The translations under genes were made by a program, and so were the position numbers. Shown piece by piece: positions 7,493 to 32,045 of a stretch of 32,045 nt of DNA. Under the pieces are notes generated by a model. The model saw only the letters and a list, made by a program, of their open reading frames with translations. It was not told where the DNA came from and searched no databases. Each line of letters begins with the position of its first letter. The first letter of the stretch is position 1. This DNA is from an uncultured Rhodospirillales bacterium (lineage in GTDB: Bacteria; Pseudomonadota; Alphaproteobacteria; Acetobacterales; Acetobacteraceae). The stretch is taken from positions 1 through 32,045 of the forward strand of contig CAMFLK010000014.1 of NCBI GenBank assembly GCA_945957135.1. The letters are read 5' to 3'.

Positions 7493-8362
7493 TCAGGCTG
7501 ATGCAGCGAGATCGCCATAGCCGATCCGCGCGATTCCCGCCGCATCCAGCGCGGCGGCGACGGCGGGGCTGAGCAGGGCGGCCAGCTCCTCCTCATGCCG
7601 GTACTCCGGCATCAGCACATCGAGCGTGGCGTCGCGGCCGGCGGCGGGGTGGAAATAGAGTTCGCTGACGCCGGACGGCAGGCGGGGAATCAGGCGCAGC
7701 ATCCGCGCCTCGGTCATCGCCCCGGTCCAGGCGAGGCCGAACACCGCGTCGTTCGCCGCCATGCCAGCGCGGCGGATCTGGTTCCGGAGCAGCCGCGTCC
7801 AGACATGCAGGGCACGGGCGCCGAAACCGGGCGCCTCACCGCAGTCCCGCATCACCGCCGGCGGTTCGGCCGGCACGCGCACGGCGCGCAGGCCGAATTC
7901 GCGGCCGGTCTCCACCAGCAGCCGCCCCACGGTGGGATGCAGGTGCATGTGCTTGTGCGCGTCGGCATGGTCCAGCACCAGGCCGGTGGCGGCGAAGGCG
8001 GCGAACTGGGCGCGGATTTCGGCGGCGAGCTGGCGGCGGATGCGCGGGCGGAAGAAGTAGTTCACGCCCAGGCGCCGCTGGCCCGAGGGGAACATCCTCT
8101 GCCCGTCCACCAGATCGGGGATTTCCGCCGGCGCCAGCACGGACGGTCCCTCGATCACCACAAGGTGCAGCCCGACGCGCAGCCCCGGCAGCCGCTTCGC
8201 CCGTGCCACCGCGTCCGCGGCCGCCGCGCCCGCCACCATCAGGCTGGCGGCGCCGAGCACGCCGTCGCGATGGGCGCGCTCGATGCCCTCGTTCACCGCC
8301 ACCGACAGGCCGAAATCATCGGCGGAGAGAATGGCGCGGCGGGAGGGGTGCGAAGGCGGCAT
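7493..8362 (-). CDS. hpnK: ChbG/YdjC-type deacetylase, hopanoid-associated HpnK
   Basis: This 289-aa protein belongs to the YdjC/ChbG carbohydrate deacetylase family. The metal-binding strings ILSADDFGLS near the N-terminus and DHADAHKHMHLHPTVG in the middle are intact. Strings such as ERAHRDGVLGAASLMVAG and LPGLRVGLHLV, and FFRPRIRRQLAAEIRAQF, match what I know of the HpnK subfamily found with hopanoid biosynthesis genes, where a sugar-deacetylation step on hopanoid head groups is suspected. I chose the ATG at 8362 because it directly precedes the family's first strand; upstream codons lack family character. It is divergent from the ABC binding-protein gene and followed by the 87-aa gene. 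No squalene-hopene cyclase or hpnA-J gene is seen nearby; hpnN lies about 9 kb away. Confidence 0.78.
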   Translation of the reverse strand: MPPSHPSRRAILSADDFGLSVAVNEGIERAHRDGVLGAASLMVAGAAAADAVARAKRLPGLRVGLHLVVIEGPSVLAPAEIPDLVDGQRMFPSGQRRLGVNYFFRPRIRRQLAAEIRAQFAAFAATGLVLDHADAHKHMHLHPTVGRLLVETGREFGLRAVRVPAEPPAVMRDCGEAPGFGARALHVWTRLLRNQIRRAGMAANDAVFGLAWTGAMTEARMLRLIPRLPSGVSELYFHPAAGRDATLDVLMPEYRHEEELAALLSPAVAAALDAAGIARIGYGDLAASA

Positions 8363-8405
8363 GGCGGCCCACCATGGCCGGGAAGTCGCGGGCCCTGTCA
8401 ATCCA

Positions 8406-8436
8406 TTGACGCCTTCCCGAGGCGGTGTCAGCGTTA
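8406..8436 (+). promoter_or_regulatory. Candidate promoter of the ABC transporter operon
   Basis: A TTGACG hexamer (8406-8411) lies in the 118-base divergent gap between hpnK and the binding-protein gene. A weak -10 candidate (GCGTTA, 8431-8436, spacer 19) follows, next to a tandem AGCGTT repeat. The -10 fit is poor, so this is only a candidate. Confidence 0.25.
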
Positions 8437-8480
8437 GCGTTATCAGCACCGAAAAAAGCACCTCTGGGGAGGGGGCAACC

Positions 8481-10403: not shown

Positions 10404-10409
10404 ACGAAG

Positions 10410-11396
10410 ATGCGCGACTACGTGCTCCGGCGGCTATTGTATATGGTGCCGACGATCTTCCTGATTTCGGTGATCGCCTTCATCATCATCCGGCTGCCGC
10501 CGGGGGACTACCTCACCACCGTCATCGCGGAGATGTCGGCCAACGGCGCGCCGGCGGACAGCGGCACCATCGCCTCGCTGCGCGCGCGCTACGGGCTGGG
10601 CGATGCCGCCTACATCCAGTATTGGCGCTGGATCAGCGGCATCGTGCTGCGCGGCGATTTCGGCCTGTCCTTCGAACGCAACGTGCCGGTGACCAGCCTG
10701 ATCTGGGGGCGGCTGGGGGCGACCTTCGGCATATCCCTCACCACGCTGCTGTTCATCTGGGTGCTCGCCTTTCCCATCGGCATCTACTCCGCGGTGCGGA
10801 AATACTCGATCGGCGACTACGTCGTGACGTTCTTCGGATTCCTCGGCCTGGCGACGCCGAACTTCCTGCTGGCCCTGGTGCTGATGTACGTCTCCGTGCG
10901 CTATTTCGGCCAGAGCGTGGGCGGGCTGGTCTCGCCGGAATATCTCGACCAGCCCTGGACGCTCGACAAATTCGCCGATCTCGCCGCCCATGTCTGGCTG
11001 CCGGTGGTGGTGATCGGCGCCTCCGGCATGGCCGGGCTGATCCGCATCATGCGCGCCAACCTGCTCGACGAGCTCTACAAACCCTATGTCGTCACGGCGC
11101 GGGCCAAGGGCATGTCGGAATTCCGGCTGCTGCTGAAATACCCCGTGCGGGTGGCGCTCAATCCGTTCCTCAGCACGGTGGGCTGGATTCTGCCCACGCT
11201 GGTCTCGGGCGAGATCATCGTCTCCGTCGTGCTCAGCCTGCCCACCACCGGCCCGCTGCTGCTGCGCGCGCTGCTGGTGCAGGACATGTACCTGGCCGGC
11301 AGCATCATCATGCTGGTCAGCATGCTCACCGTGGTGGGCACGCTGGTCTCGGACATCCTGCTCGCCTGGGTCGATCCGCAGATCCGCTACCAGTGA
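10410..11396 (+). CDS. ABC transporter permease, DppB type
   Basis: This 328-aa inner-membrane protein has the DppB/OppB pattern: an N-terminal membrane segment (MRDYVLRRLLYMVPTIFLISVIAF), a periplasmic stretch with RYGLGDAAYIQYWRWISGIVLRGDFGLSF, then five further membrane segments. The cytoplasmic EAA-like loop that contacts the ATPases is YVVTARAKGMSEFRLLLKYPVRVALNP. It starts 6 bases after the binding-protein stop codon, and its own stop overlaps the GTG start of the next permease. It forms the translocation channel with the following gene product. Confidence 0.93.
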   Translation: MRDYVLRRLLYMVPTIFLISVIAFIIIRLPPGDYLTTVIAEMSANGAPADSGTIASLRARYGLGDAAYIQYWRWISGIVLRGDFGLSFERNVPVTSLIWGRLGATFGISLTTLLFIWVLAFPIGIYSAVRKYSIGDYVVTFFGFLGLATPNFLLALVLMYVSVRYFGQSVGGLVSPEYLDQPWTLDKFADLAAHVWLPVVVIGASGMAGLIRIMRANLLDELYKPYVVTARAKGMSEFRLLLKYPVRVALNPFLSTVGWILPTLVSGEIIVSVVLSLPTTGPLLLRALLVQDMYLAGSIIMLVSMLTVVGTLVSDILLAWVDPQIRYQ

Positions 11397-12511
11397 GCGC
11401 CGTGGCCGAAACCCTGGATGCGGGCGACGAACCCCGAATCGTCGTCGCCGGGCAATGGAAGCTGTTCTGGTGGAAGTTCCGCAAGCACCGCCTGGCGATG
11501 GCGAGCCTGGTGGTGCTGGGCATGATGTATTTCGTCGGTGCCTTCGCGGAGTTCTTCGCTCCCTTCCCCGTCGATCTGCCGAACACCCGCTACACCTACG
11601 CCCCGCCGCAGATGCTGCATTTGTTCCAGGACGGACGGCTCGCCCCCTACGTCAATGGCTACAAGGTGCAGATCGACCGCGTGGCCATGCGCCGCACCTT
11701 CGTCACCGACGAGGCCGTGCGCATTCCCGTGCATTTCTTCGTGCAGGGCGACCCCTACCTGCTCTGGGGCCTGTTCCCGATGCGCACGCGGCTGATGGGG
11801 GTGGAGCAGCCCGGCCAGCCGCTGTTCCTGATGGGGGCGGACCGGCTGGGGCGCGACATGCTCAGCCGGGTGATCCATTCCACCCGCATCTCGCTGTCCA
11901 TCGGGCTGGTCGGCGTGGTGATCAGCCTCAGCCTGGGCGTGCTGCTGGGCGGCGTGTCCGGCTATTTCGGGGGCGCGGTGGACACGCTGATCCAGCGGCT
12001 GATCGAGTTCGTGCGCTCGGTTCCCACCATTCCCCTGTGGATGGGCATGGCCGCCGCCGTGCCCACGCAATGGCCGCCGCTGCGCACCTATTTCATCATC
12101 ACGCTGATCATCTCGCTGATCGGCTGGACCAGCCTGGCGCGCGAGGTGCGCGGCAAGTTCCTCGTGCTGCGCAACGAGGATTTCGTCACCGCCGCCCAGC
12201 TCGACGGGCTGTCGGACCTCGCCATCATCTACAAGCACATGGTGCCCTCCTTCCTCAGCCACATCATCGCCGCCTGCACGCTGGCCATTCCCGGCATGAT
12301 CCTGGCGGAGACCGCGCTGAGCTTCCTCGGCATCGGGTTGCAACCGCCGATCGTCAGCTGGGGCGTGCTGTTGCAGGAGGCGCAGAACATCCGCGCCGTG
12401 GCCTCCGCGCCCTGGCTGCTGTTCGCGCCGGGCATCGCGGTGGTCTCGGCGGTGCTGGCGCTCAACTTCCTCGGCGACGGGCTGCGCGACGCGGCGGACC
12501 CCTATGCCTGA
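11393..12511 (+). CDS. ABC transporter permease, DppC type with long periplasmic insertion
   Basis: I start this 372-aa protein at the GTG overlapping the stop of the DppB gene (GTGA), which gives MSAVAETLDAG; a second GTG lies 9 bases downstream. The N-terminal cytoplasmic part and first membrane segment (MASLVVLGMMYFVGAFAEFF) are followed by roughly 100 residues before the conserved LMGADRLGRDMLSRVIHSTRISLSIG. Usual DppC proteins of about 290-300 residues have a much shorter stretch there, so this insertion is distinctive and may contact the large binding protein. The EAA-like loop is EDFVTAAQLDGLSDLAIIYKHMVPS. It overlaps the next ATPase gene by 8 bases. Confidence 0.92.
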   Translation: MSAVAETLDAGDEPRIVVAGQWKLFWWKFRKHRLAMASLVVLGMMYFVGAFAEFFAPFPVDLPNTRYTYAPPQMLHLFQDGRLAPYVNGYKVQIDRVAMRRTFVTDEAVRIPVHFFVQGDPYLLWGLFPMRTRLMGVEQPGQPLFLMGADRLGRDMLSRVIHSTRISLSIGLVGVVISLSLGVLLGGVSGYFGGAVDTLIQRLIEFVRSVPTIPLWMGMAAAVPTQWPPLRTYFIITLIISLIGWTSLAREVRGKFLVLRNEDFVTAAQLDGLSDLAIIYKHMVPSFLSHIIAACTLAIPGMILAETALSFLGIGLQPPIVSWGVLLQEAQNIRAVASAPWLLFAPGIAVVSAVLALNFLGDGLRDAADPYA

Positions 12512-13514
12512 GGCCCCGCTTCTCAAGGTTTCAGACCTGCGCACGCATTTCTTCACCGACGAAGGGGTGGTGAAATCGGTCGATGGCGTGGACTTCGCCG
12601 TGGAGCAGGGCCGCACGCTGTGCGTGCTGGGCGAGTCCGGCTGCGGCAAGTCGGTCACCGCGCGCTCCATCCTGCGCATCGTCGATCGGCCCGGCCGCGT
12701 GGTCTCCGGGCGGATCGAATGGCGGCGCAAGGACGGCAGCGTGGTGGACATCGCCACCCTGCCCGTGGCGGGGCGGGAGATGCGGCGCATCCGCGGCGGC
12801 GAGATCGCCATGATCTTCCAGGAGCCGATGAGCTCGCTGGGGCCGATCCACTCCATCGGCGACCAGATCATCGAAACCATCCTGCTGCACCAGGACCTTT
12901 CCAAATCCGCGGCGCGCGATAAGGCGATCCAGGCGCTGCGGCGGGTGGGCATGCCGGATGCCGAGCGGCGGCTGGCGCTGTATCCGTTCCAGCTCTCGGG
13001 CGGCATGCGCCAGCGCGCGATGATCGCGCTCGCCCTGTGCTGCGAGCCGCGGCTGCTGATCGCCGACGAGCCGACCACGGCGCTGGACGTCACCACCCAG
13101 GCCAACATCCTCGACCTGATGAAGGGACTTCAGGACGAGTACCGCATGGCCATGCTGTTCATCACCCACGATCTCGGCGTGGTCGCGGAAATCGCCGACG
13201 AGGTGGTGGTGATGTATCTCGGCCGGGTGGTGGAGCGCGGCACGGTGGACGAGATTTTCCACGCGCCGCGCCATCCCTACACGCAGGCGCTGCTGCGCTC
13301 GGTGCCCAAGCTCGGCAGCCGGGGCGAGAACCGGCGGCTCGCGGTGATCCGCGGCTCCGTGCCGCATCCCTTCGCGCGGCCTGCCGGCTGTGGCTTCGCG
13401 CCGCGCTGCGAACAGGCCATCGCCGGGCGCTGCGCCACCATCCAGCCGGAGCTGACGACTTTGGCGGACGGGCACCAGGTGCGCTGCCTGCTCTATTCGG
13501 ACCAGGCGGCATGA
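12504..13514 (+). CDS. ABC transporter ATP-binding protein, DppD type
   Basis: This 336-aa ATPase has all motor motifs: Walker A GESGCGKS, signature [12 protein letters not shown], Walker [13 protein letters not shown] and the switch histidine in LFITHDLG. The C-terminal oligopeptide-transporter extension ends in the cysteine-bearing [14 protein letters not shown], which in this family can carry an iron-sulfur cluster. It overlaps the permease upstream by 8 bases and the second ATPase downstream by 4 (ATGA). It pairs with that second ATPase to energise import. Confidence 0.94.
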
Positions 13515-14542
13515 CCGAACCCACCACCCTGCTCGACGTGCGCGACCTCAAGGTGCATTTCCCCATCCAGAAGGGCGTGTTGCGCCGGGTGGTGGGGCAT
13601 GTGAAGGCGGTGGATGGGGTCAGCTTCGCCATCCGCGCGGGCGAGACGCTGAGCCTGGTCGGCGAATCCGGCTGCGGCAAGACCACGACGGGCCGCGCGG
13701 TGCTGCGAATCCTCAAGCCCAGCGCTGGGGAAATCCTCTACCATCCGAAGGACGGCCCGCCGGTCGATCTCGCCGGGCTCGACAAGCGCGCCCTGCGCCC
13801 CTACCGGCGCGACATCCGCATGATCTTCCAGGACCCGCAATCCTCGCTGAACCCGCGCCTGCCGGTGCTGGAGATCGTCGGCCAGTGCCTGCGCACCAAC
13901 GGCATCGCCAACGGCACGGAGCTGGAGCATCGCGTCGCCGACCTGCTGCGCCGGGTGGGGCTGCGGCCGGAATATCTCCGCCGCTACCCGCACGCCTTCA
14001 GCGGCGGCGAGCGCCAGCGCATCGGCATCGCCCGCGCCCTCGCCTTGTCGCCGCGCCTGGTGGTGGCGGACGAGGCTGTCTCGGCGCTGGACGTGTCGGT
14101 GCAGGCGCAGACGCTGAACCTGCTTCAGGATCTGCAGGCGGAATTCGCGCTGACCTACCTGTTCATCGCCCACGACCTCTCGGTGGTGGAGCACATCTCC
14201 GACCGCATCGCCGTGATGTATGTCGGCCGCATCGTGGAATTGGCCGACACCGCCACGCTGTTCGCCCGCCCGGCGCATCCCTATACCGAGGCGCTGCTCT
14301 CCGCCGTGCCGATCGACGATCCGCGCCTGCGCGGCAGCCGGGCCCGCATCCGCCTGGGCGGCGAGGTGGCGGACCCCGCGCGGCCGCCGCCCGGCTGCGC
14401 CTTCCATCCGCGCTGCGCCCATGCCGATGCGCGCTGCCGGGCGGAGATTCCGGTGCTGCGCGAGGTGGTGCCGGGCCATCAGGCGGCCTGCCATCATGCC
14501 GAATCCCTCACGCTGCGCGGCATCCTGCCCGAAGCGGCGTGA
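13511..14542 (+). CDS. ABC transporter ATP-binding protein, DppF type
   Basis: The start is the ATG at 13511 that overlaps the preceding stop (ATGA), giving 343 aa; the upstream extension of the frame is inside the previous gene. Walker [14 protein letters not shown]-loop [12 protein letters not shown], signature [15 protein letters not shown] and C-terminal [17 protein letters not shown] are intact. The Walker B end reads [10 protein letters not shown], where most relatives have DEPVSALD, a mild change that keeps the catalytic Glu. It is the fifth gene of the transporter operon, and the dehydratase gene starts 24 bases after it. Confidence 0.94.
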
Positions 14543-14566
14543 TCCGTTTCCCCGAGGAGAGCTGCC

Positions 14567-15721
14567 GTGAAGATCACCGCCATCACCGCCTATCCCGCCT
14601 GGATCGGCATCCGCAACCAGCTGCTGGTGAAGGTGGAGACCGACGAGGGCATCACCGGTTGGGGCGAATCCGGCCTGTCCGGCCGCGAGAAGGCGGTGGC
14701 CGGGGCGGTGGAGCACTACGCCCAGTTCCTGGTCGGGCGCGACCCGATGCGGGCCGGCGCGCTGTGGCAGGAGATGTATCGCAGCCAGTATTTCGAGGGC
14801 GGACGCGTGCTGACCGCGGCGATCTCGGCGATCGACATCGCGCTGTACGACATCAAGGGCAAGGCGCTGGGCGTGCCGGTCTATCAGCTGCTCGGCGGCA
14901 AGCAGCGCGACCGGGTGCCGAGCTTCGCCACCACCCATGCGCCCCCCGGCGAGGAGATGATCGCGCAGGCGCGCATGCTGATCGCGGCGGGCTGGAACTG
15001 CATGCGCCTGTCCTGCGCCAACCACGAGAGCAAGACGATCTACGAGCCGCGTGAGTCGTTGGCGGAGACCGCGCGCTGGCTGGTGCGGGCGCGCGAGGCG
15101 CTGGGCGACACGGTGGTGCTGGGCGTGGACTACCACCATCGGCTCAGCGTGGCGGAGGCCGCGAGCTTCTGCCAGAGAATGCCCAAGGGCACGCTGGATT
15201 TCCTCGAGGAGCCGATCCGCGACGAGAGCCCGGAGGCCTATGCCTCGCTGCGCACGATGACCGACATTCCCTTCGCCATCGGCGAGGAATTCAGCAGCAA
15301 GTGGCAGTTCCTGCCCTATATCGAGCGCGGGCTGCACCAGTACAACCGCATAGACATCTGCAATGTCGGCGGCTTCACCGAGGCGATGAAGGTGGCCGGG
15401 TGGAGCGAGGCGCATTACGTCGATCTGATGCCGCACAACCCGCTCGGCCCGATCTGCACCGCCGCCACGGTGCATTTCGCCGCCGCCGTGCCGAATTTCT
15501 CCTGGCTGGAAACGCGGGCGTCGCCGGCGGAGACGCATCTGGGCTTCGATTCCAGCGAGTTCTTTCCGGTGCAGGTGAAACTCGAAGGCGCGGACTATCC
15601 CGTTCCCGAAGCCCCCGGTTTGGGCGTGGAGGTGGACGAGGAGCGCATCAAGCGCGAGGCGTTCCGCTTCTGGGAAGCCCCGCATCTGCGGCGGCGCGAC
15701 GGCTCCTACACGAACTGGTAG
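14567..15721 (+). CDS. Enolase-superfamily dehydratase, D-galactonate dehydratase (DgoD) type
   Basis: This 384-aa mandelate racemase/muconate lactonizing enzyme-family protein aligns along its length with E. coli DgoD. The DgoD metal ligands and catalytic histidines appear with a constant offset of five: Asp188 and His190 in VDYHHR, Glu214 in FLEEPI, Glu240 in IGEEF, and His290 in MPHNPLGPI. Asp263 in RIDICNVGG matches the barrel Asp. These residues support acid-sugar dehydration, yielding a 2-keto-3-deoxy acid. DgoD's LSHAGG is CNVGG here, so the substrate may not be galactonate. Its position as last gene behind the ABC importer suggests it acts on the imported compound. The start is preceded by GAGGAGAGC. 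Confidence 0.88.
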   Translation: MKITAITAYPAWIGIRNQLLVKVETDEGITGWGESGLSGREKAVAGAVEHYAQFLVGRDPMRAGALWQEMYRSQYFEGGRVLTAAISAIDIALYDIKGKALGVPVYQLLGGKQRDRVPSFATTHAPPGEEMIAQARMLIAAGWNCMRLSCANHESKTIYEPRESLAETARWLVRAREALGDTVVLGVDYHHRLSVAEAASFCQRMPKGTLDFLEEPIRDESPEAYASLRTMTDIPFAIGEEFSSKWQFLPYIERGLHQYNRIDICNVGGFTEAMKVAGWSEAHYVDLMPHNPLGPICTAATVHFAAAVPNFSWLETRASPAETHLGFDSSEFFPVQVKLEGADYPVPEAPGLGVEVDEERIKREAFRFWEAPHLRRRDGSYTNW

Positions 15722-15849
15722 GGGGCGCCTGCCTTCTTCGAGGATGGCGCCGTGCTCGGTGTCGTCCTGGGCATGCTTGCTCAAGGGCCTTGACGACACC
15801 TGCGCGCGGCGCCTTTGGAGTGGAAGGCCGGGTCGAGGAAAGGCGCCTT

Positions 15850-16013
15850 TTCAGCCGATCAAGGAAAGCGGAAGGGCTCACTCCCGTCCCTTCCCTTCTT
15901 CGCATGTCAGCAGGCGCTTCGTCGTGGGGGACGGAGTCAAGGCTCTTGAGCGAAGCGTGCCTTGACGCCGTCTCCCGCAACGCGAGCATAATCGCAAGAA
16001 GCGAAGGAGCCCG
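15850..16013. repeat. Dispersed intergenic repeat, copy A
   Basis: Within the gene-free stretch 15722-16145, the bases 15918-16013 match 26653-26749 closely over about 96 positions in the same orientation, with shared blocks such as GTCAAGG, CTTGAG, CCGCAACGC and AGGAGCCCG. Weaker similarity extends left to about 15850 (shared AGGAAA, GGAAGGG, TCACT and GCATGTC). It contains an imperfect 18-bp inverted repeat (15928-15945 against 15959-15976 approximately). A further inverted match, 15775-15794 against 15936-15956, lies partly outside. No coding frame of family character was seen here. Confidence 0.65.
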
Positions 16014-16016
16014 GCT

Positions 16017-16055
16017 CTCATATCAAGGGCCATGAAGAATGACCCTTGATATGAG
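16017..16055. terminator. Bidirectional terminator-like hairpin
   Basis: Perfect 13-bp arms CTCATATCAAGGG (16017-16029) and CCCTTGATATGAG (16043-16055) flank a 13-nt loop in which CAT/ATG can also pair. TCTTTGTTT follows on the plus strand, giving a short U-rich tail. It lies between the convergent dehydratase and methyltransferase genes, so it may terminate both transcripts. It is directly adjacent to repeat copy A. Confidence 0.6.
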
Positions 16056-16145
16056 TCTTTGTTTGGCGCGCCGCCGCCCACCAACCCGGCGCGCGATACC
16101 GCCGTCCCTCCGCGATGGAAGAGTCATCGCTTCGTGCCGCCGGTA

Positions 16146-17285
16146 TCAGACCGAGCCCCATACCTCGCGCGCCACCTCAACGCACAGTTCCAGCTTGCGC
16201 CATTGCTGATCCTCGGTCAGCAGATTGCCTTCCTCGGTGCTGGCGAAGCCGCATTGCGGCGACAGAGCGAGCTGTTCCAGCGGCAGGTATTTCGCCGCCG
16301 CGTCGATGCGCCGCTTCAGCTCGTCCTTGCTCTCCAGCTCGCCGGTCTTGCTGGTGACCAGGCCGAGCACCACGATCTTGTTGCCGCGCGGCACCAGGCG
16401 CAGCGGCTCGAATCCTCCGGCGCGGTCGGTGTCGTATTCCATGAAATAGGCATCGACATCGATGGCGTTGAACAGCACCTCGGCCACCGGCTCGTAGCCG
16501 CCGGTGGCGATGAAGGTGGAGCGGAAATTGCCGCGGCACAGATGCATGGAAATCACCATGTCCTCCGGCCGGCCGGCAATGGCGCGGTTGATGAGGTCGG
16601 CGTAGATTTCCAGCAGCCCCTCCACATGCTCGCCGCGCTTCTTCAGCCCCTCGATCTGCTCGGGGTCGCAGAGATAGGCGATGTTCACCTCGTCCAGTTG
16701 CAGGTAGCGGCAGCCGGCGGCGGCGAATGCGCGCACCGCGTCGCGATAGGCGGTGCCGAGATCGTCGAAGAAGGGTTGCAGATCGGGATAGACGTTGCGG
16801 TCGATCGCCTGCCGCCCGCCGCGGAAATGCACCACGCTGGGCGAGGGAATCGTCTGCTTGGCCACCACGCCCGGCGCCACCTGGCCGGCGACGAAGCGGT
16901 AGTCGTCGAGGAACACCGGCTCCTTCCAGGCGATGCGCCCGTTCACCCGCAGCACGTGCGGCAGGGCCACGCCGCCCTTGAACTCCACCTTGCTCTCGGG
17001 CGTGTAGAGCTCGCAGCCCTCCAGCCGGGCGATGAAATCGTAGTGCCAGTAGGCGCGGCGGTATTCGCCGTCGGTCGCGGCGCGCAGGCCGATCGCCTCC
17101 TGCCGGCGGATGGCATCGGCGATGGCGACGTCCTCGATCTCGCGCAGCCCGGCGGCGGCCAGGGTGCCGGCGGCACGGGCGGCCCGCGCCTCGCGCAGGG
17201 CGGGCGGGCGCAGCAGGCTGCCGACATGGTCGGCGCGGAAGGGCGGACGGGTGCGGACGGGGATGGCGGCTGCGAGTTCGCTCAT
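16146..17285 (-). CDS. Cobalamin-independent methionine synthase C-domain-like methyltransferase
   Basis: This 379-aa protein resembles the catalytic C-terminal half of MetE and stand-alone relatives such as Bacillus YxjG/YxjH. The zinc site is complete: His248 and Cys250 in SMHLCRGN, Glu283 in YFMEYD and Cys345 in SPQCGFAS. RADHVGSLLRP at the N-terminus and QLDEVNIAYL are also typical. Relatives transfer a methyl group to homocysteine or a similar thiol. The N-terminal MetE domain is absent, so the methyl donor may differ from methyltetrahydrofolate. The start is well supported by AGGAGG (17294-17299 on the plus strand as CCTCCT), 8 bases from ATG. It is divergent from hpnN. Confidence 0.88.
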   Translation of the reverse strand: MSELAAAIPVRTRPPFRADHVGSLLRPPALREARAARAAGTLAAAGLREIEDVAIADAIRRQEAIGLRAATDGEYRRAYWHYDFIARLEGCELYTPESKVEFKGGVALPHVLRVNGRIAWKEPVFLDDYRFVAGQVAPGVVAKQTIPSPSVVHFRGGRQAIDRNVYPDLQPFFDDLGTAYRDAVRAFAAAGCRYLQLDEVNIAYLCDPEQIEGLKKRGEHVEGLLEIYADLINRAIAGRPEDMVISMHLCRGNFRSTFIATGGYEPVAEVLFNAIDVDAYFMEYDTDRAGGFEPLRLVPRGNKIVVLGLVTSKTGELESKDELKRRIDAAAKYLPLEQLALSPQCGFASTEEGNLLTEDQQWRKLELCVEVAREVWGSV

Positions 17286-17356
17286 GGGACGGTCCTCCTG
17301 GCGGGGGTTTTGAACCCGGCTCGCGGCTTCGTCAAAGGGCCGCGCGGCCGCCCGGC

Positions 17357-19987
17357 ATGGACCAAGCGGACGGGACCGATTATGCCCCTCACCCCATGAT
17401 GCTCTCCCGCCTGTTGGCCGCGCTCGTCGCGCGCAGCACCCGCCATGCCGTTCTGTTCGTCCTCGCCGGGTTGCTGCTGGCCGGGCTCGCCGGATTCGCC
17501 GCCTGGTCCCGCCTCGGCGTCAGCACCGACACGGACACGCTGTTCGCCCAGGACCTGCCGTGGCGCCAGCGCAAGGTGGCGTTCGACCGCGCGTTTCCCC
17601 AGTTCCAGGATTTGCTGGTGGCGGTGGTGGACGGCGCGACGCCGGAGCAGACCGAGGCCACCGCCGCCGGCCTCGCCGCCGCGCTCGCCGCCGACCCCGC
17701 CCATTTCCGCGACGTGCGGCGGCCGGATGCCTCGCCCTTCCTGGAGGCCAACGGCCTGCTGTTCCTGGACGAAAAATCGCTCGGCGACCTGCTCGACCAC
17801 ATCATCGACGCCCAGCCCTTCCTCGGCCAGCTCGCCGGCGACCCCAGCGCGCGCGGGCTGTTCGCCGCGCTGAGCCTGGTGGCGATCGGGGTGGAGAAGG
17901 ACCAGGCCAATCTCGCGCCCTTCGCCGGCTCGCTCCAGGGCTTCCACGAGGCGCTGTCCCGCGCCGCCGCCGGCAAGGCCGAGCCGCTGTCCTGGCAGGG
18001 GCTGCTGGCCGGCCAGCTCTCCGACCTCGCCGGCCGCTACCGCTTCGTGCTCGCCCGCCCGGTGCTGGACCACACCGCGCTGGAAGCGGGCGGGGTGGGG
18101 ACGAAGCTGATGCGCGAGGCCGCCGCGCGGCTGGAATTCGTGCGCGACGGCAGCGCCCATGTGCGCATCACCGGCCCGGTCGCGCTGTCGGACGAGGAAT
18201 TCGCCACCGTGGCGGAGGGAGCGGTGACCGGCACCATCGCCAGCGGGGCGCTGGTGGTGCTGTGGCTGCTGCTGGCGGTGCGCTCGCCGCGGCTGATCGT
18301 GCCGATCGTGGCGACCTTGCTGCTCGGCCTGCTGCTGACCACCGCCTTCGCGGCGCTGGCGGTGGGCACGCTGAACCTGATCTCCGTCGCCTTCGCCGTG
18401 CTGTTCGTGGGCATCGCCGTCGATTTCGCCATCCAGTTCAGCGTGCGCTACCGCGAGCAGCGCCTCGCCGTGCCCGATACGCGCGCCGCCCTGGTGGCCA
18501 CGGCCGGCGAGGTGGGGCCGCAGATCCTGGTGGCGGCCACGGCGGCGGCGGCCGGCTTCCTCGCCTTCGTGCCCACCGATTTCCGCGGCGTGGCGGAGCT
18601 GGGGCTGATCGCCGGCGTGGGCATGCTGATCGCCTTCGCCTGCACCATGACCTTCCTGCCCGCCCTGCTCACCCTGCTGCGGCCGCGCGGCACCGACCGC
18701 GAGATGGGCTTCGCCTGGGCCGGCGCCCTGGAACGCGGGTTGCTGCGGGTGCGCCTTCCGGTGCTGGCCGGGTTCGGCGTATTCGCCGTGCTCGGCATCG
18801 CCCTGCTGCCCCGCCTCGCCTTCGACAGCGACCCGCTGAGCACCAAGAACCCCAACACCGAGGCCATGCGCACCCTGCGCGACCTGATCAGCGAGCCGCT
18901 GACCAACCCCTACACCGCCGACATCCTGGTGCCCGACGCCCAGGCCGCCGACGCGCTGGCCGCCAAGCTGAAGGCGCTGCCGGAAGTGGCCCAGGTCCTC
19001 ACGCTGGACAGCTTCGTCCCCGGCGACCAGGGGCCGAAACTCGCGCTGCTGGCCGACGCCAACACCATCCTCAGCGCCACCCTCGCCCCCCGCGCCCCGG
19101 CCGCCCCGGTCAGCGCCGAGGATATCCGCCTCGCCGCCCGCTCCACCCTGGCGCAGATCGACCGGGCGCTGCCCAAGCTCTCCACCGACAACCCCCTCGC
19201 CCCCATCGCCGCCGACCTCAAGGCACTGGCCGACGCGCCGGATGCCACCCTGCTGGCCGCCAACGCCGCCCTCACCCGCTTCCTGCCGGACCAGCTGGCC
19301 CGCTTGCGCCGCGTGCTCGCCGCCCATCCGGTGACCGCCGCCGACATCCCCGCCGACATCACGCGGGACTGGCGGCTGCCGGACGGGCAGGTGCGGGTGC
19401 AGGTGCTCTCCACCCCCGCGGCGCGCGAGCCGGCCGGCCTGCGCGCCTTCGCCAACGCCGTGCGATCCGTGGCCCCCTCGGCCGGCGGGTCGGCCATCAC
19501 CATCACCGAGACCGCCAACACCATCGTCGGCGCCTTCCGCACCGCGGCGATCGGGGCGATCGGCGCGATCTTCCTCATCCTGCTGCTGGTGCTGCGCCGC
19601 GTGCTGGACGTGTCGCTGGTGATGGCCTCGCTGCTGCTCTCCGCCCTGCTGACCGTGGTGGTGGCGGTGCTGCTGCCACTGCCGCTGAATTTCGCCAATA
19701 TCATCGCCTTGCCGCTGCTGCTGGGGGTGGGCGTGTCGTTCAACATCTATTTCGTGATGAACTGGCGGGCGGGGGCGCGCAGCTTCCTCGGCTCGGCCAC
19801 GGCGCGGGCCATCCTGTTCTCGGCGCTGACCACCTCCACCGCCTTCGGCTCGCTGGCGCTGAGCAAGCATCCGGGCACGGCCAGCATGGGCGAGCTGCTG
19901 CTGCTGAGCCTGGGCTGCACGCTGCTGGTCACCATGATCTTCCTGCCCGCGCTGCTGAGCGAACTGCGCGGCCCGGCCGAACGATGA
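17357..19987 (+). CDS. hpnN: Hopanoid biosynthesis-associated RND transporter HpnN (MMPL family)
   Basis: This 876-aa inner-membrane RND/MMPL protein fits HpnN, which moves hopanoids toward the outer membrane. Segments follow the RND plan: membrane helix 1 near residues 28-50, a large periplasmic loop to about 275, five helices to about 450 (including NLISVAFAVLFVGIAVDFAIQFSVRYREQR), one helix near 475, a second loop to about 715, and a final five-helix bundle ending in LLVTMIFLPALLSEL. The GIAVDFAIQF motif matches the MMPL GxxxDF/Y relay region. The start is uncertain: ATG at 17357 or the ATG pair at 17396/17399, none with a clear ribosome site. It is coupled to the glycosidase-like gene by ATGA. 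Confidence 0.86.
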   Translation: MDQADGTDYAPHPMMLSRLLAALVARSTRHAVLFVLAGLLLAGLAGFAAWSRLGVSTDTDTLFAQDLPWRQRKVAFDRAFPQFQDLLVAVVDGATPEQTEATAAGLAAALAADPAHFRDVRRPDASPFLEANGLLFLDEKSLGDLLDHIIDAQPFLGQLAGDPSARGLFAALSLVAIGVEKDQANLAPFAGSLQGFHEALSRAAAGKAEPLSWQGLLAGQLSDLAGRYRFVLARPVLDHTALEAGGVGTKLMREAAARLEFVRDGSAHVRITGPVALSDEEFATVAEGAVTGTIASGALVVLWLLLAVRSPRLIVPIVATLLLGLLLTTAFAALAVGTLNLISVAFAVLFVGIAVDFAIQFSVRYREQRLAVPDTRAALVATAGEVGPQILVAATAAAAGFLAFVPTDFRGVAELGLIAGVGMLIAFACTMTFLPALLTLLRPRGTDREMGFAWAGALERGLLRVRLPVLAGFGVFAVLGIALLPRLAFDSDPLSTKNPNTEAMRTLRDLISEPLTNPYTADILVPDAQAADALAAKLKALPEVAQVLTLDSFVPGDQGPKLALLADANTILSATLAPRAPAAPVSAEDIRLAARSTLAQIDRALPKLSTDNPLAPIAADLKALADAPDATLLAANAALTRFLPDQLARLRRVLAAHPVTAADIPADITRDWRLPDGQVRVQVLSTPAAREPAGLRAFANAVRSVAPSAGGSAITITETANTIVGAFRTAAIGAIGAIFLILLLVLRRVLDVSLVMASLLLSALLTVVVAVLLPLPLNFANIIALPLLLGVGVSFNIYFVMNWRAGARSFLGSATARAILFSALTTSTAFGSLALSKHPGTASMGELLLLSLGCTLLVTMIFLPALLSELRGPAER

Positions 19988-25318: not shown

Positions 25319-26209
25319 TCAAAAGCAGAGTCCGCCCCTTTCATGGTGGTTGTTTGAATTGATGGCAACGTGTCCGGGGGCATGCCCCCGGACACGTTGG
25401 CCGGCGACCTCGGCGGGGGTCTTCCCGCCGAGCTTCGAGTGTGGCCTGACCGTGTTGTAGTCGCGCCGCCACCGGGCCAGTTCGGCCCTGGCGTGGACCA
25501 TCGTGGTGAACAACGTCTCGTTCAAGCACTCGTCCCGCAGCCGGCCGTTGAAGCTCTCGACGAAGGCGTTCTGCGTCGGCTTGCCAGGGGCGATGTAGTG
25601 CCACTCGACCCGATGCTCCTGCGTCCAGCGCAGGATCGCCGACGACGTCAGCTCCGTGCCGTTGTCACTCACCACCGTCAGCGGCTTGCCGCGCAGCCCG
25701 ATCAGGAGGGTCAGTTCCCGCGCAACCCGTGCGCCCGACAGCGACGTGTCCGCCACCAGCGCCAGGCACTCCCGCGTGAAGTCATCGACCACGCACAGGA
25801 CGCGGAACCGACGGCCGCAGACCAGGCTGTCCGAGACAAAGTCGAGCGACCAGCGCTGGTTCGACCCGTCCGGCAATACCATCGGAGATCGCGTCCCCAG
25901 AGCCCGCTTGCGGCCGCCACGGCGGCGGACCCGAAGCCCCTCCTCGCGGTAGAGGCGCAGCAGCTTCTTGTGGTTGGGTGCCATCCCCTCCCGAGCCAGC
26001 AAGTAGCCCAGCCGACGGTAGCCAAACCGGCGCCGCTCACCTGCCAGTTCGCGAAGTCGCTGCCGCAAGGCCGTATCGTCCGGCCGGCGCGACCGATACC
26101 GGACCACGCGGCGGCTCACGCCAACCAAGCCACACGCCCGACGCTCGCTCAGCCCATGATGCTCACGGGCATGGGCAACGGCTTCTCGCCTCGCGCCGGG
26201 CGTCACCAT
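25319..26209 (-). CDS. IS3-family transposase OrfB (DDE integrase core)
   Basis: This 296-aa protein carries the rve-type DDE catalytic core: Asp in [11 protein letters not shown], Asp in [11 protein letters not shown] and Glu in [19 protein letters not shown]. An N-terminal HTH_21-like domain ([25 protein letters not shown]) precedes it. It overlaps orfA by 7 bases in the -1 frame; an A7 run on the coding strand (26215-26209) allows programmed -1 frameshifting to make the OrfAB transposase. It appears intact, so the element could still be active. Confidence 0.93.
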
Positions 26210-26469
26210 TTTTTTGTGGCCAGGTCCTTCAGCACCGCATTGTCGAGCATCGCCTCGGCCAGCAACTTCTTCAGCCGGGCGTTCTCCTCCTCAAGCGAGC
26301 GCAGGCGCCGCGCCTCGGACACCTCAAGCCCGCCAAACTTCGACTTCCACTGGTAGAACGTCGCAGGGCTGATGCCATGACGGCGGCAGACCTCCGCCGT
26401 CGCCATCCCGGCCTCCTGCTCCTTCAAGACCCCGATGATCTGCTCTTCGCTGAACCTGCTGCGCTTCAT
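26203..26469 (-). CDS. IS3-family transposase OrfA (helix-turn-helix, leucine zipper)
   Basis: The start is the ATG at 26469, giving 88 aa that open with [21 protein letters not shown]. The HTH ([23 protein letters not shown]) binds the terminal repeats. A leucine-zipper-like helix ([21 protein letters not shown]) follows and mediates oligomerisation. It ends in TKKW at the A7 slippery run, where ribosomes can shift into orfB. Confidence 0.93.
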
Positions 26470-26557
26470 CCGTCCGACTCCTCTCCGTCGGACTCTACCC
26501 AAAAACGGTTACATTTCAGGGGAGCACGTCACCCTGTTCGCGCGTGGCGTCGTGGTC

Positions 26558-28555: not shown

Positions 28556-28667
28556 GCGGCGGCCCTCATCCTTCCATCTCCTGAAGAAGATAGATGTTGC
28601 GCGTGAAGCTGCGCACAAGCCACGATTTCGGCGCCCGGGCAAGCCGTTGCGTGGGGGACTGGGGGAA

Positions 28668-28714
28668 TGGTGCCGACGCCCGGGATTGAACCGGGGACCT
28701 ACTGATTACGAATT
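28668..28714 (-). tRNA. 3' half of tRNA-Thr(CGT), attachment-site remnant
   Basis: Read on the minus strand the sequence ends in CGTCGGCACCA and contains the T-arm CCCCGGTTCAATCCCGGG and an anticodon loop TTCGTAA with anticodon CGT. The 3' strand of the anticodon stem (ATCAG) is present, but the bases that should form its 5' strand (CTGAT) read GGAAT. No D-arm or 5' acceptor strand GCCGACG follows. The match therefore breaks at the anticodon loop, the usual crossover point of tyrosine integrases. I read it as one end (att) of the integrated element to its right. Confidence 0.8.
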
Positions 28715-28741
28715 CCATTCAGCACTCCAGGCAAACCGCCG

Positions 28742-28860
28742 TGTCCGGACAGGGTTCAAAAAATCTCGCGACATTTCCGCCGCTTATTGCGACGTTCCCT
28801 GACTTTTCTTGACACACGCCGACAGAAAACGTCAAATGCGTGCGGACACGGTGCGGACAC
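28742..28860 (+). promoter_or_regulatory. Integrase control region: promoter, tandem repeat and palindrome
   Basis: TTGACA (28809-28814), 17 bases, then TCAAAT (28832-28837) forms a good promoter about 40 bases before the integrase ATG. GTGCGGACAC occurs twice in tandem (28840-28849 and 28851-28860), just downstream of the expected start of transcription. A related palindrome TGTCCGGACA lies at 28742-28751. The repeats could be arm-type integrase sites or operators for autoregulation. The stretch is also poorer in GC than the surrounding genes. Confidence 0.5.
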
Positions 28861-28875
28861 AAAGGGATTCTGATT

Positions 28876-30144
28876 ATGGCGGAGAGGCTCACGGACACGG
28901 CTGTGAAGGCCCTTCCGGCTCCCGATTCCGGAAATCGCATCACCTATGACGACGAAATAAAGGGTTTCGGTGTCCGCGTTACCTCGGCAGGGGCCAGGGC
29001 GTTTGTCCTGAATTACCGGACCGGCGGCAGGGAGCGGCGCATCACCATCGGCGCTTTTCCCGACTGGACCGTGAAGGCGGCACGGGAGGAAGCCAAGACG
29101 CTCAAGCGCCGCGTCGATGTCGGCGCCGACCCCATGGCGGAGCGGCACGCCGACCGTGGCGCCCCGACCGTCAATGCCCTGGCCGACAGGTTCGAGCGGG
29201 AGCATGTGACGAAGAAACGGCCGGCGACGCAGGTCGATTACGCGTCCATCCTTCGCCTCTACGTCCGGCCGGAGCTGGGGACCAGAAAGGTTGCCGAGGT
29301 TCGCCACGCCGACATCGAGCGGCTGCATCGGCGCATCGCGGCAACGGCACCCTACCGGGCGAACCGGACCGTGGCGGTGTTGTCCAAGATGTTCAATCTC
29401 GCCGTGAAATGGGAACTGCGCTCGGATAACCCGGCGAAGGGCATCGAGCGGGCGCAGGAGGAAAAGCGGGAACGCTTCCTGGCCCCGGCCGAGCTAACCC
29501 GACTGGCCGAGGCGATGGCCAACCACAATCAAAAGACGAGCGCCAACGCGCTGCGGCTGCTGCTGCTGACGGGTGCCCGGCGGGGCGAAATGCTGGCGGC
29601 GAAGTGGGACGAGATTGATTTCGGGGGCGGCGTATGGGTCAAGCCCAGCGCGCACACGAAACAGAAAAAGCTGCATCGCGTGCCTTTGTCGGCGCCGACT
29701 TTGGCCCTGCTGCGCCAGATGCGGGCCGAAGCCGCCGGCAACCCGAAGGGGAGCGAGTACGTGTTCCCCGGCTTCTCGCGGGACGGCAAAGCCACCGGCT
29801 TGCGCGAGGTCCGAAAGACATGGCTCTCGGTTTGCAGGATGGCCGGCTTGGCTGTTGAGGTGGAGAAGACCGGACGGGACGGCAAGCGCGTGCTGGATAA
29901 GGACGGGCTGCCCGTCATGGTGTGGAAGGCTACCCTTCGCATTCATGATTTGCGGCATTCCTACGCGTCCATCTTGGCAAGCGCCGGCCTGTCCCTGCCG
30001 ATCATCGGCGCGCTGCTGGGCCACACGCAGGCGGCGACCACGGCGCGGTATGCTCACCTGCTCGATGACCCGCTGCGCGACGCGACGGAGCGCGTGGGGG
30101 TGCTGGTGCAAGCCGCGATGGTCACCAAAGGTGGCGTGCAATGA
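28876..30144 (+). CDS. Tyrosine recombinase/integrase of the tRNA-targeting island type
   Basis: The ATG at 28876 gives 422 aa starting MAERLTDTAVKALPAP, the usual opening of these integrases. An N-terminal DUF4102 arm-binding domain (about 1-90) contains RITIGAFPDWTVKAAREEAKTL. A core-binding domain (about 100-190) follows, then the catalytic domain with Arg235 (TGARRGE), His357 and Arg360 (HDLRH), His383 (LLGHTQ) and the nucleophile Tyr392 (ARYAHL). All catalytic residues are present, so it should be active. The next gene overlaps it by ATGA. It integrates or excises the element at the tRNA-Thr 3' end. Confidence 0.95.
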   Translation: MAERLTDTAVKALPAPDSGNRITYDDEIKGFGVRVTSAGARAFVLNYRTGGRERRITIGAFPDWTVKAAREEAKTLKRRVDVGADPMAERHADRGAPTVNALADRFEREHVTKKRPATQVDYASILRLYVRPELGTRKVAEVRHADIERLHRRIAATAPYRANRTVAVLSKMFNLAVKWELRSDNPAKGIERAQEEKRERFLAPAELTRLAEAMANHNQKTSANALRLLLLTGARRGEMLAAKWDEIDFGGGVWVKPSAHTKQKKLHRVPLSAPTLALLRQMRAEAAGNPKGSEYVFPGFSRDGKATGLREVRKTWLSVCRMAGLAVEVEKTGRDGKRVLDKDGLPVMVWKATLRIHDLRHSYASILASAGLSLPIIGALLGHTQAATTARYAHLLDDPLRDATERVGVLVQAAMVTKGGVQ

Positions 30145-30686
30145 GTTCCGCCCGCGTGATTCTGGAGTTGCTGATCAAGCGGCTGGAAGCGCGCATCGGT
30201 CCCGATGACGAGAAACTTGTGCGCGGCTACTGGGGCGAAGAGCCGCCGGAGGAGTTTCGTAAGGCCATGCTCCAGGGGAAAAGGCACTTCCAGCAGGCTC
30301 TGCACATGGCCCGCGCCGCTTTGAAGTCGGGGGATGAAACGCAAATTCTGACCGCTGCGCTTCATTGCCCGCCTTTCGAACGGCTCGGCCTAGAAAAGGC
30401 TTTGACCTATGCCGAAAATGAGCTGCGAAAAAAGGGGGGAGCGATCCGCGGCGAACAGCAGCGCACCCGCGCTCGCGAACAGGCACACGAATGGATCGAG
30501 ATATACGAAGCGCAGTTGGCAAAGGGCAATCCTCCCGCCATAGCTTTCAACGAAGTAAGCAAAGCAATGGACCGCAGATGGGAAGGTGACCCGCCGCTGG
30601 ATAAGAATAAGAAGCCGATCCCCCGCCCGGCGAATGGGACGGTTCGACGCTGGATTCGACAAAGAAATAGTTGTTCACCAGCTTAA
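30141..30686 (+). CDS. Unknown protein coupled to the integrase
   Basis: The 181-aa product starts within the integrase stop (ATGA), so the two are translationally coupled. It appears mostly helical and soluble: a first part (SSARVILELLIKRLEARIGPDDEKLV), a middle with ALHCPPFERLGLEKALTYAENELRKKGG, and a charged helix (RGEQQRTRAREQAHEWIEIYEAQLAKG). The C-terminus (PRPANGTVRRWIRQRNS) has the look of the end of a helix-turn-helix. I recognise no family. Coupling suggests it supports or controls integration, which is inference. Its stop codon is within a perfect palindrome. Confidence 0.75.
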   Translation: MSSARVILELLIKRLEARIGPDDEKLVRGYWGEEPPEEFRKAMLQGKRHFQQALHMARAALKSGDETQILTAALHCPPFERLGLEKALTYAENELRKKGGAIRGEQQRTRAREQAHEWIEIYEAQLAKGNPPAIAFNEVSKAMDRRWEGDPPLDKNKKPIPRPANGTVRRWIRQRNSCSPA

Positions 30687-30696
30687 GCTGGTGAAC
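30673..30696. promoter_or_regulatory. Perfect 24-bp palindrome, candidate operator
   Basis: The half-site GTTCACCAGCTT (30673-30684) is followed at once by its exact complement (30685-30696), without spacer. It spans the last three sense codons and the stop of the 181-aa gene and lies 64 bases before the helix-turn-helix gene. A dyad of this length fits an operator for a dimeric regulator; an RNA hairpin with a TTAA loop is also possible, but no T-run follows. Confidence 0.5.
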
Positions 30697-30760
30697 CCAC
30701 ACCCTGCGACATCTCGGTCATGGTGGCGACGCCCTCAAAAGGACGGAGCCAACCCCGAAG

Positions 30761-31063
30761 ATGACCGCCCCCACCATTGAAGCGACACCTCCCGCTTCTT
30801 CTCCGCCTGCACCGCCCGGTGTCATGCCGGCCGATATTCGCAGCGCTATCTTCGGCGATCTCGCAACCGTGGAAGCGTTCGCCGCTGCGACTGGGCTGAG
30901 CCCGAGGACCATCCTGCGATACATCGCGGCCGGCCGGGTGCCGATGACGCGAGTGGGAAAAACCCCATACATCATCATCAGCAAAGCCCGCGAGGCGCTG
31001 ATGACGCCGCAGCCGCGGCATGAACAGCCCCGCCGGGGCCGCCCCCGCAAGCACGCCGCATAA
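30761..31063 (+). CDS. Small DNA-binding protein: helix-turn-helix plus AT-hook
   Basis: The 100-aa product has a proline-rich disordered start (1-22), then a helix-turn-helix of the excisionase/AlpA type (TVEAFAAATGLSPRTILRYIAAGRVPMTRVGKTPYIIISKARE, residues 36-78). The C-terminus is PRRGRPRKHAA, a canonical AT-hook (RGRP core) for the minor groove. The combination suggests a recombination directionality factor or regulator of the element. GGACGGAG lies upstream of the ATG as a modest ribosome site. It sits 64 bases after the 24-bp palindrome, a possible target. Confidence 0.75.
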   Translation: MTAPTIEATPPASSPPAPPGVMPADIRSAIFGDLATVEAFAAATGLSPRTILRYIAAGRVPMTRVGKTPYIIISKAREALMTPQPRHEQPRRGRPRKHAA

Positions 31064-31068
31064 CGAAA

Positions 31069-31097
31069 CCCCTCACCGCGCCAGCACGCGGGAGGGG
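31069..31097 (+). terminator. GC-rich stem-loop after the helix-turn-helix gene
   Basis: CCCCTC and CCGCG (31069-31074, 31076-31080) pair with CGCGG and GAGGGG (31087-31097) around a CCAGCA loop, with one bulged A. It lies 6 bases after the stop codon. There is no T-run, so the terminator call is tentative. The 126-base gap that follows has no other feature I can support. Confidence 0.4.
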
Positions 31098-31189
31098 CAT
31101 CGAGCAGTCGTATCGATGTGGTCGGCACCCATCTTTTACTGATCTGCGCGGGCTTCTTCAAGCGTGCTGGCGTCTCAGACGAGATCGCC

Positions 31190-31375
31190 ATGCGAAAAAA
31201 ACTTTCACCCCTGGCCCGAGTTCGAACCGGAGAACGCGATCTAATCCGGGATCATCGCCGCGCGAAGGCCGCGCTGCTCGACCGCCTCGCCGACGCCGAA
31301 ATAATGCAGGGGCACATCGCTCAGGCCGAACGCTTGGCCCATCGGGCCGAAGAACTCCGCGAGGCGGCACGATGA
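31190..31375 (+). CDS. Small helical protein of the integrated element
   Basis: I start at the ATG at 31190 (MRKKLSPLARVRTGERDLIRD), giving 61 aa; the longer frame to 31118 begins with a hydrophobic stretch that lacks support. The product is nearly all charged helix with heptad-like leucines (AALLDRLADAEIMQGHIAQAERLAHRAEELREAAR), so a coiled coil is probable. It overlaps the next gene by ATGA. Function unknown. Confidence 0.6.
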   Translation: MRKKLSPLARVRTGERDLIRDHRRAKAALLDRLADAEIMQGHIAQAERLAHRAEELREAAR

Positions 31376-31698
31376 GCGCCGCCGACACCCCGCCCGCGTT
31401 CGCGATCGATAAGGTATCGATCGGGCTGAACAATTCCGGCCACCTCGGCGAGCGGACGTTCGCGCAGGCGAGCGTGACCGTCGGCCCCTTCTCGTTCGAT
31501 TGCTACTTGCTCCCCGACGGCCGGGTGTCGCTGCCGATGACGCTGCGAGACGAGCGGCTGCGGCTCGCGATCTCCGAAGTGCTGCGTGAGATGGTTGTCG
31601 AGGAAGCGGCCGAGCGGTGGACGCTGATCTCCGAGTACGAGCGCCGGCAATTCGAGAAACGCCAGGCAGAGCGCCAGGCGCACCGGCGCGGGCGGTGA
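31372..31698 (+). CDS. Unknown 108-aa protein, SpoVG-like in outline
   Basis: It starts inside the preceding stop (ATGA). Residues 13-75 read as beta strands followed by a helix: AFAIDKVSIGLNN, RTFAQASVTVGPFSFDCYLLPDGRVSLPM, then LRLAISEVLREMVVEE. The order (a strand with Ala-Ser-Val-x-Val, a Gly-Pro-Phe turn, a strand ending in Ser-Leu-Pro, then a helix) recalls SpoVG-like DNA- or RNA-binding proteins, some of which occur in mobile elements. The resemblance is visual only. The C-terminus is a charged helix (YERRQFEKRQAERQAHRRGR). Confidence 0.65.
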   Translation: MSAADTPPAFAIDKVSIGLNNSGHLGERTFAQASVTVGPFSFDCYLLPDGRVSLPMTLRDERLRLAISEVLREMVVEEAAERWTLISEYERRQFEKRQAERQAHRRGR

Positions 31699-31702
31699 TG
31701 CA

Positions 31703-32045
31703 GTGAGCGCCAGCCTCGCGGACCAAATCGCCCGGCGCCGCATCGCCGACGGCTTCGCGCTTGCCCTTGCCGAAGACTGGCCGGCCCTGCGCGACCTCGC
31801 CACCCATCTCGATGATGACGAAGGCGACCGTTTCGCCCGTGGCGTCACGAGGCTTCTTATGAGGGCGGCGCACATCACCAAGAACTGGGCACCGTACTTC
31901 GACAGCCAATGGGCACTCCCCAGTTCGTCGTGGCGCCAGGCCTGCCGGGAGTTCGGCGATCGCGTCGCGGCCTGGGCGGTGCCGGCCAAGCCGAAGGCGG
32001 AGACACCGCGTCGCCAGCTCGGCCGGCTCGCCATCAGGCTGGTGC
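31703..32045 (+). CDS. Unknown protein, incomplete at the window edge
   Basis: A frame opens at the GTG at 31703 (MSASLADQIARRRIADGFAL) and runs without stop to the last base, giving at least 114 residues. It begins 4 bases after the stop of the 108-aa gene, so the string of small genes continues. The visible part is helical and rich in Trp (DWPALRD, KNWAPYFDSQWALPSSSWRQACREFGDRVAAWAV). No family recognised. Confidence 0.6.
   Translation, partial: MSASLADQIARRRIADGFALALAEDWPALRDLATHLDDDEGDRFARGVTRLLMRAAHITKNWAPYFDSQWALPSSSWRQACREFGDRVAAWAVPAKPKAETPRRQLGRLAIRLV

Follow-up and report, generated by a model that had tools for sequence, protein, structure and literature searches.

What does a tRNA gene broken at its anticodon loop, with a complete tyrosine integrase close behind it, mark in the genome of an uncultured Rhodospirillales bacterium (Acetobacteraceae)? 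Both lie near the right edge of a stretch of 32,045 nucleotides, here called the window, which is the whole of contig C14 (CAMFLK010000014.1) of assembly GCA_945957135.1 (genome G000; 4.4 Mb in 422 contigs, 97% complete). The original prediction, made from the letters of the window, took them for one end of an integrated element whose cargo was the most likely place for an undescribed system. Judged from its sequence, this is the left end of a complete mobile element of 14,529 bp, within which the contig ends. The element is probably a complete integrated phage satellite, and three of its genes, named I, J and K, would be the signature of a new family. Its gene content makes the expectation about the cargo a fair one.

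Boundaries of the element

Positions 28667-28713 carry, on the minus strand, the 3' half of a tRNA-Thr gene: the final base of the 5' anticodon stem, the anticodon loop with CGT, and all that follows up to CCA. This half opens with ATTCGTAATCAG and closes with GGCACCAT; the plus strand reads ATGGTGCCGACGCCCGGGATTGAACCGGGGACCTACTGATTACGAAT. ARAGORN finds no tRNA anywhere in the window, as is expected when only half a tRNA gene is present. The 47-base segment has exactly two copies in the 4.4-Mb genome (E 9e-18), both in the same orientation, and an exact 32-mer search with it gave two matches in the genome and zero in the control; the repeat match is far above chance. The second copy, at C4:11155-11201, belongs to an intact tRNA-Thr(CGT) gene (C4:11156-11230 according to ARAGORN), of which it forms the 3' part and after which comes a tRNA-Gly gene. 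The element therefore comprises the window from position 28714 to its end plus contig C4 up to position 11154. The segment had been proposed as one attachment site, with an intact tRNA-Thr(CGT) and a second copy beyond the right edge, within about 150 kb. All of this was confirmed, the copy lying at 14.5 kb, with the refinement that the edge is the end of C14 and the far end lies on C4.

The end of C14 and the start of C4 share four nucleotides, GTGC (window 32042-32045, C4:1-4). Joined through them, open reading frame (ORF) F has 161 codons, and its stop falls just within the start of the next gene. Contig C11 of this genome holds an intact ORF with which the joined one aligns without gaps over 146 amino acids (60% identity), the junction (residue 114/115) falling inside the alignment; the two contigs therefore abut directly. 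Direct repeat and abutment together give the whole element a size of 14,529 bp, measured between the starts of the two repeats.

No empty site between matching flanks was found in the relatives sampled, among which there was no genome of the same genus: they have an intact tRNA-Thr(CGT), but at no sampled locus are the flanking genes shared. Near-identical copies of the C4 part of the element are absent from the phage records. The comparison with relatives that had been suggested came out as anticipated. The half tRNA and the gene order are not conserved in all of them, most having only the intact tRNA-Thr(CGT), and some carry a half tRNA-Thr(CGT) linked to different elements.

Integrase and probable recombination at the anticodon loop

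The integrase starts 163 bases past the tRNA break and its frame is open to the end given in Table 1. It matches PF00589 (5e-24), PF13356 (Arm-DNA-bind_3, DUF4102; 9e-21) and phrog_1 (1.5e-67). Both the complete integrase and the at least five small co-directional genes that had been announced behind the break are present. The tandem GCGGACA pair upstream of the integrase is its sole match in the window (0.02 expected). A second pair lies at C4:11072-11089, 66 bp before the right core; the search covered 20 kb of C4 and gave no other, with 0.04 expected. The integrases of loci L011-L014 (56-59% identical) and L177 (65%) have the same pair before their start, with small changes at most.

The two repeats become identical at the final base of the 5' anticodon stem, which locates the crossover to the identical block and not to one base. 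Half tRNAs with the same cut adjoin the integrases of L014 (Thr(CGT)), L012 and L013 (Lys(CTT)) and L011 (Lys(TTT)), the anticodons being read from sequence. This supports recombination at the anticodon loop as a property of the integrase clade, and suggests that one clade uses several tRNA targets with a single cut position. The original proposal of a crossover in the anticodon loop fits both observations. Displaced halves of tRNA-Thr(CGT) occur also in genomes G014, G015, G016, G023 and G028, mostly with other integrases; on this evidence the gene is an integration hotspot in the bacterial family. At the same tRNA-Thr(CGT), G016 has a 10-kb element (L113, G016:C1, 3591-13810) with capsid-, protease-, portal- and primase-like genes, as read from sequence, whose integrase adjoins the intact tRNA and not the half tRNA.

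Gene content

The element combines an integrase and an AAA_25 ATPase with an incomplete set of virion genes and has no portal or HK97 capsid gene, which is the general profile of a satellite. Family searches of its annotated ORFs found no large terminase, portal or major capsid, and the set of a complete prophage (large terminase, portal, capsid, tail and lysis modules) is absent. Homologues of the 100-residue helix-turn-helix (HTH) protein are encoded near the related integrases in L011, L012 and L014.

Table 1. Features of the element and its left attachment site. Positions without a contig name refer to the window; those on C4 belong to locus L050.
Feature	Position	Strand	Remarks
attL core: displaced tRNA-Thr(CGT) 3' half	28667..28713	-	47-bp direct repeat of G000:C4:11155-11201
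Left 3.3 kb of integrated element	28714..32045	+	continues without gap on C4:5-11154
Inverted single copy of arm-type motif (TGTCCG)	28742..28747	-	comparable position in L011, L012, L014, L177; weak alone
Candidate tandem arm-type sites GCGGACA-N4-GCGGACA	28842..28859	+	just upstream of integrase
Tyrosine integrase	28876..30144	+	ATG start; Arm-DNA-bind_3 and Phage_int_M domains; motifs ARRGEM, HDLRH, LLGH, ARYAHL
181-aa protein	30141..30686	+	no Pfam or PHROG match; overlaps integrase stop by 4 nt
100-aa HTH protein, candidate excisionase/regulator (Cox/AlpA-like)	30761..31063	+	weak HTH_17 6e-4; phrog_575 Cox-like 1e-4
61-aa small protein	31190..31375	+	homologue in satellite G018b, 63% over 35 aa
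108-aa protein	31372..31698	+	no Pfam or PHROG match
ORF F, 5' part (114/161 codons)	31703..32045	+	completed on C4:5-147; joined ORF matches G000:C11:8948-9385
AAA_25 ATPase	C4:140-1333	+	2e-32
Gene H, small-terminase-like	C4:1714-2100	+	phrog_83 6e-14; TIGR01558 2e-4
Protein I	C4:2079-2498	+	ORF
ParB-like fragment, broken by frame change	C4: about 2490-2904		between I and J; phrog_21315 3.5e-15
Protein J	C4:3132-3866	+	244 aa
Protein K	C4:3866-4354	+	ORF
Prohead protease S78	C4:4351-5010	+	1e-12
Tape measure with Phage_lysozyme2	C4:5023-6888	+	Phage_lysozyme2 2e-24; phrog_9570 1e-82
No assigned function; possibly membrane protein by inspection	C4:7287-7766	-	ORF
HTH-M78 peptidase	C4:7794-8936	+	resembles RmrA-type defence proteins, PADLOC 7.5e-15
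PIN-like by inspection only	C4:8923-9351	+	no Pfam match
Ribbon-helix-helix protein	C4:9394-9603	-	small ORFs from there to element end

The HTH-M78 peptidase gene and the PIN-like gene behind it could form a toxin-antitoxin or defence pair within the element.

In G000, C11 alone carries an HK97-type capsid gene (PF05065) and a portal gene (PF04860), and there they are part of another element. This second satellite-like element (L267, about 7500-19141) has the homologue of ORF F and an integrase-like ORF. It resembles capsid-forming phage-inducible chromosomal islands (cf-PICIs), with its capsid gene at 15133-15966 and its portal gene at 16661-17644, and ends at tRNA-Phe (19066-19141).

The I-J-K-protease family of elements

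The element described here shares the order I-J-K-protease, with frames intact throughout, with five others from three genera: two in G018 (G018a and G018b) and one each in G205, G281 and G308. Identities to I, J, K and the protease range from 24 to 52%, and the elements sit at different tRNAs with different integrases. The viral contig L180, found by a protease alignment search and not by the J query, has a partial block of J and protease; another viral contig, L179, has the same sequence as DNA of G308. J is present in 5/397 genomes of the same bacterial family, G000 included, and in 0/384 others sampled across the class. Neither I nor J has a match in 50,697 phage records. Single-protein queries with J and with the protease of the element gave no match in viral contigs, and the G205 element is absent from plasmids.

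Four elements could be mapped and are of closely similar size: 14,529 bp in G000, 14,510 bp in G205, 14,734 bp for G018b and 15,329 bp for G018a. The G205 repeat, of 45 bp, ends within the tRNA-Glu(CTC) anticodon loop, while G018a and G018b have 17-bp repeats at tRNA-Ser genes. The G205 element has a Terminase_4 match at 1.7e-12. No PF05065 capsid gene is found in the whole genomes of G018 (100% complete, with its two elements), G205 and G308. The start of G018b (L172, G018:C147, 3703-6478) has two divergent integrase genes, one of them split in two, which may reflect two elements at one site.

The genes behind the protease differ from element to element. They encode a tape measure in G000 and G205, a TAC_7 chaperone and a tape measure in G018a, a Mu gp44-type baseplate hub and the end of a tape measure in G018b, a gp10-like protein in G281, and a portal and a hub in L180. 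In G308 a large terminase gene lies ahead of I.

Satellite or remnant

The strongest competitor of the satellite reading is a decaying prophage of the type of Komagataeibacter phage phiKM1, from which most head and tail genes would have been deleted, leaving protease and tape measure adjacent by chance. We consider it unlikely. The two proteins do resemble those of phiKM1 (tape measure, 42% over the first 303 residues; protease, 35%), the ParB-like frame is broken, and G018b retains just the C-terminal end of a tape measure. Chance deletion does not account for a gene order kept with intact frames in six elements that have diverged so far and use different tRNAs and integrases. The absence of I and J from phage records indicates that they are not phage leftovers, and the near-equal length of the four mapped elements (14.5-15.3 kb) is unlike the outcome of random deletion.

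The tape measure is carried by 29 genomes of the bacterial family, and at the loci scanned the protease lies within 1.5 kb of it only in G000, G018 and G205. Phage records show the two genes separated by several kb, and by 11 kb in phiKM1. In a tree of 34 tape measures those of G000, G018a and G205 are not monophyletic, and the starred branches force at least two changes. The seven satellite proteases fall into two groups, each mixed with proteases of ordinary phages, which forces at least three changes; L186, L192, L249 and L251 of this tree were called ordinary phages from neighbouring ORF sequences and not from family searches. Exactly how many swaps took place is uncertain, given the long branches. 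From this scattered placement I-J-K looks like the satellite core, and the protease and tail genes look like replacements from phages.

Two other views of the protease were rejected. Matches to NF045541 and phrog_617 raised the idea of a truncated protease-capsid fusion; the alignment to the separate protease of phiKM1 reaches the C-terminal end, and a conserved Trp is the final residue in 6/6 aligned satellite proteases, which counts against it. Nor have the satellite proteases lost a phage scaffold tail, their C-terminal extensions being of 63-136 amino acids and the phage median 98 (p = 0.47).

A genomic island moved solely by its own integrase, with a domesticated virion-derived system such as a defence or bacteriocin-like protease/tape-measure module, is improbable. 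The small size and precise attachment sites would suit it, as would the RmrA-like HTH-M78 peptidase and the PIN-like gene, which recall toxin-antitoxin or defence cassettes. The small-terminase-like gene, the prohead protease, the replication-type ATPase and a conserved size near that of Staphylococcus aureus pathogenicity islands (SaPIs) point instead to packaging, and a tailocin would have tail tube, sheath or baseplate genes, of which there are none. Least probable is a canonical or capsid-forming PICI of described type. The order of integrase, regulators, replication genes and small-terminase-like gene and the size of about 15 kb resemble those of PICIs, and genes for capsid, protease and portal are indeed present in the C11 element and in that of G016 (10 kb). 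The element itself is without capsid, portal and large terminase, by which cf-PICIs are defined, and a protease together with a tape measure is not among the cf-PICI or SaPI components in the available excerpts of PMC10690885 and PMC6893505.

We thus privilege the reading of the element as a phage satellite, against which several points weigh. The helper and mobilisation by it are inferred. The small-terminase call for gene H, at 6e-14 in PHROGs, is weak in Pfam (Terminase_4, 0.02). The genome-wide capsid search covered the HK97 type (PF05065) only. The broken ParB-like frame indicates that some decay has occurred, and the large terminase of G308 and the portal of L180 indicate that the family is not uniformly stripped. 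Finally, the scaffold role proposed below for J and K is drawn from helix content, length and position, Foldseek and sequence searches having given no relative.

A possible scaffold and mode of transfer

J and K, which like I are conserved throughout the family, are all or mostly helical. The predicted model of J (pLDDT, predicted local distance difference test, 84) is all-helical, with a 75-residue helix. J has no significant PDB sequence or Foldseek match and no fold relative, and I no significant homology to known structures. J is a candidate helical scaffold by analogy with Sid of phage P4, which has 244 residues and a 100-Å helical stem (PMC7552001). The two proteins are equal in length and both all-helical with very long helices, making Sid a candidate functional analogue. 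J does not match Sid significantly in structure or sequence, and no P4 genes were found in the element. The prohead protease of the P2/P4 system is gpO of the helper, whereas the element encodes its own. That such a scaffold may escape homology searches is illustrated by TcaP of the PLE satellite, an external scaffold invisible to them before its function and structure were known (PMC10945586). PLE is an unrelated satellite of Vibrio cholerae, with a different gene set and host and ICP1 as helper phage. Both comparisons are analogies and imply no membership.

The following mode of transfer may be proposed. The integrase would bind the tandem arm sites at both ends, recombine at the anticodon loop and rebuild the tRNA, so that the host loses no tRNA. 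A helper would enter or be induced, probably a contractile-tailed phage of Acetobacteraceae type of about 43-52 kb, like phiKM1 or Acetobacter phage phiAP1. The HTH protein could then aid excision and the AAA ATPase serve replication, while the candidate small terminase of the satellite would direct the helper large terminase onto satellite DNA. J and K together would act as a scaffold turning the helper capsid protein into small capsids that hold about 15 kb and are matured by the satellite-encoded protease. From the slot behind the protease would come virion parts of helper type (tape measure, tail chaperone, baseplate hub, portal, gp10-like), exchanged between lineages, and the element may use its own tape measure. 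More tentatively, and with rather less than even probability, I-J-K may be an unrelated capsid-size-redirecting scaffold in a satellite that remodels the tail too, through exchangeable helper-type parts re-acquired from different phages behind the fixed protease, which would match or retune the borrowed virion.

Comparison with known systems

The best-known phage satellites are those of Enterobacterales, Vibrio and Gram-positive bacteria. In the literature searched (open-licence articles in PMC) no satellite is described from this alphaproteobacterial family, and none with its own tape measure or with a tape measure and a prohead protease. SaPI1 and other PICIs share with the element an integrase at one end, replication genes, a small terminase (in the element a small-terminase-like gene), a partial virion set and a size of about 15 kb, as well as the helper dependence that is modelled here. 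They differ in that no sequence relation to their capsid-redirecting genes is seen, and in the prohead protease, tape measure and anticodon-loop attachment of the element. The cf-PICIs encode capsid, portal, connectors, protease, small and large terminase and HNH (PMC10690885). They are likewise satellites with head genes beside terminase, and borrow tails from the helper; of their set the element has only the small-terminase-like gene and the protease, to which it adds a tail gene.

The closest named phages are phiKM1 and phiAP1 for the tape measure, and phiKM1 also for the protease and the small-terminase-like protein. They are complete myophages of 43-52 kb with capsid, sheath and baseplate and without I, J and K, and are likely of the helper type. 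Should J and K prove to be a scaffold, capsid-size redirection would have been invented independently once more; should the slot genes work in the virion, satellites would be seen to edit the tails of their helpers. Being short, complete and sharply delimited, the element allows a direct test of both ideas.

Outside the element, 2.2 kb left of the half tRNA, the minus strand of window positions 25319-26502 carries an IS3-type transposase pair, read from sequence as two overlapping ORFs with the integrase-core and helix-turn-helix parts.

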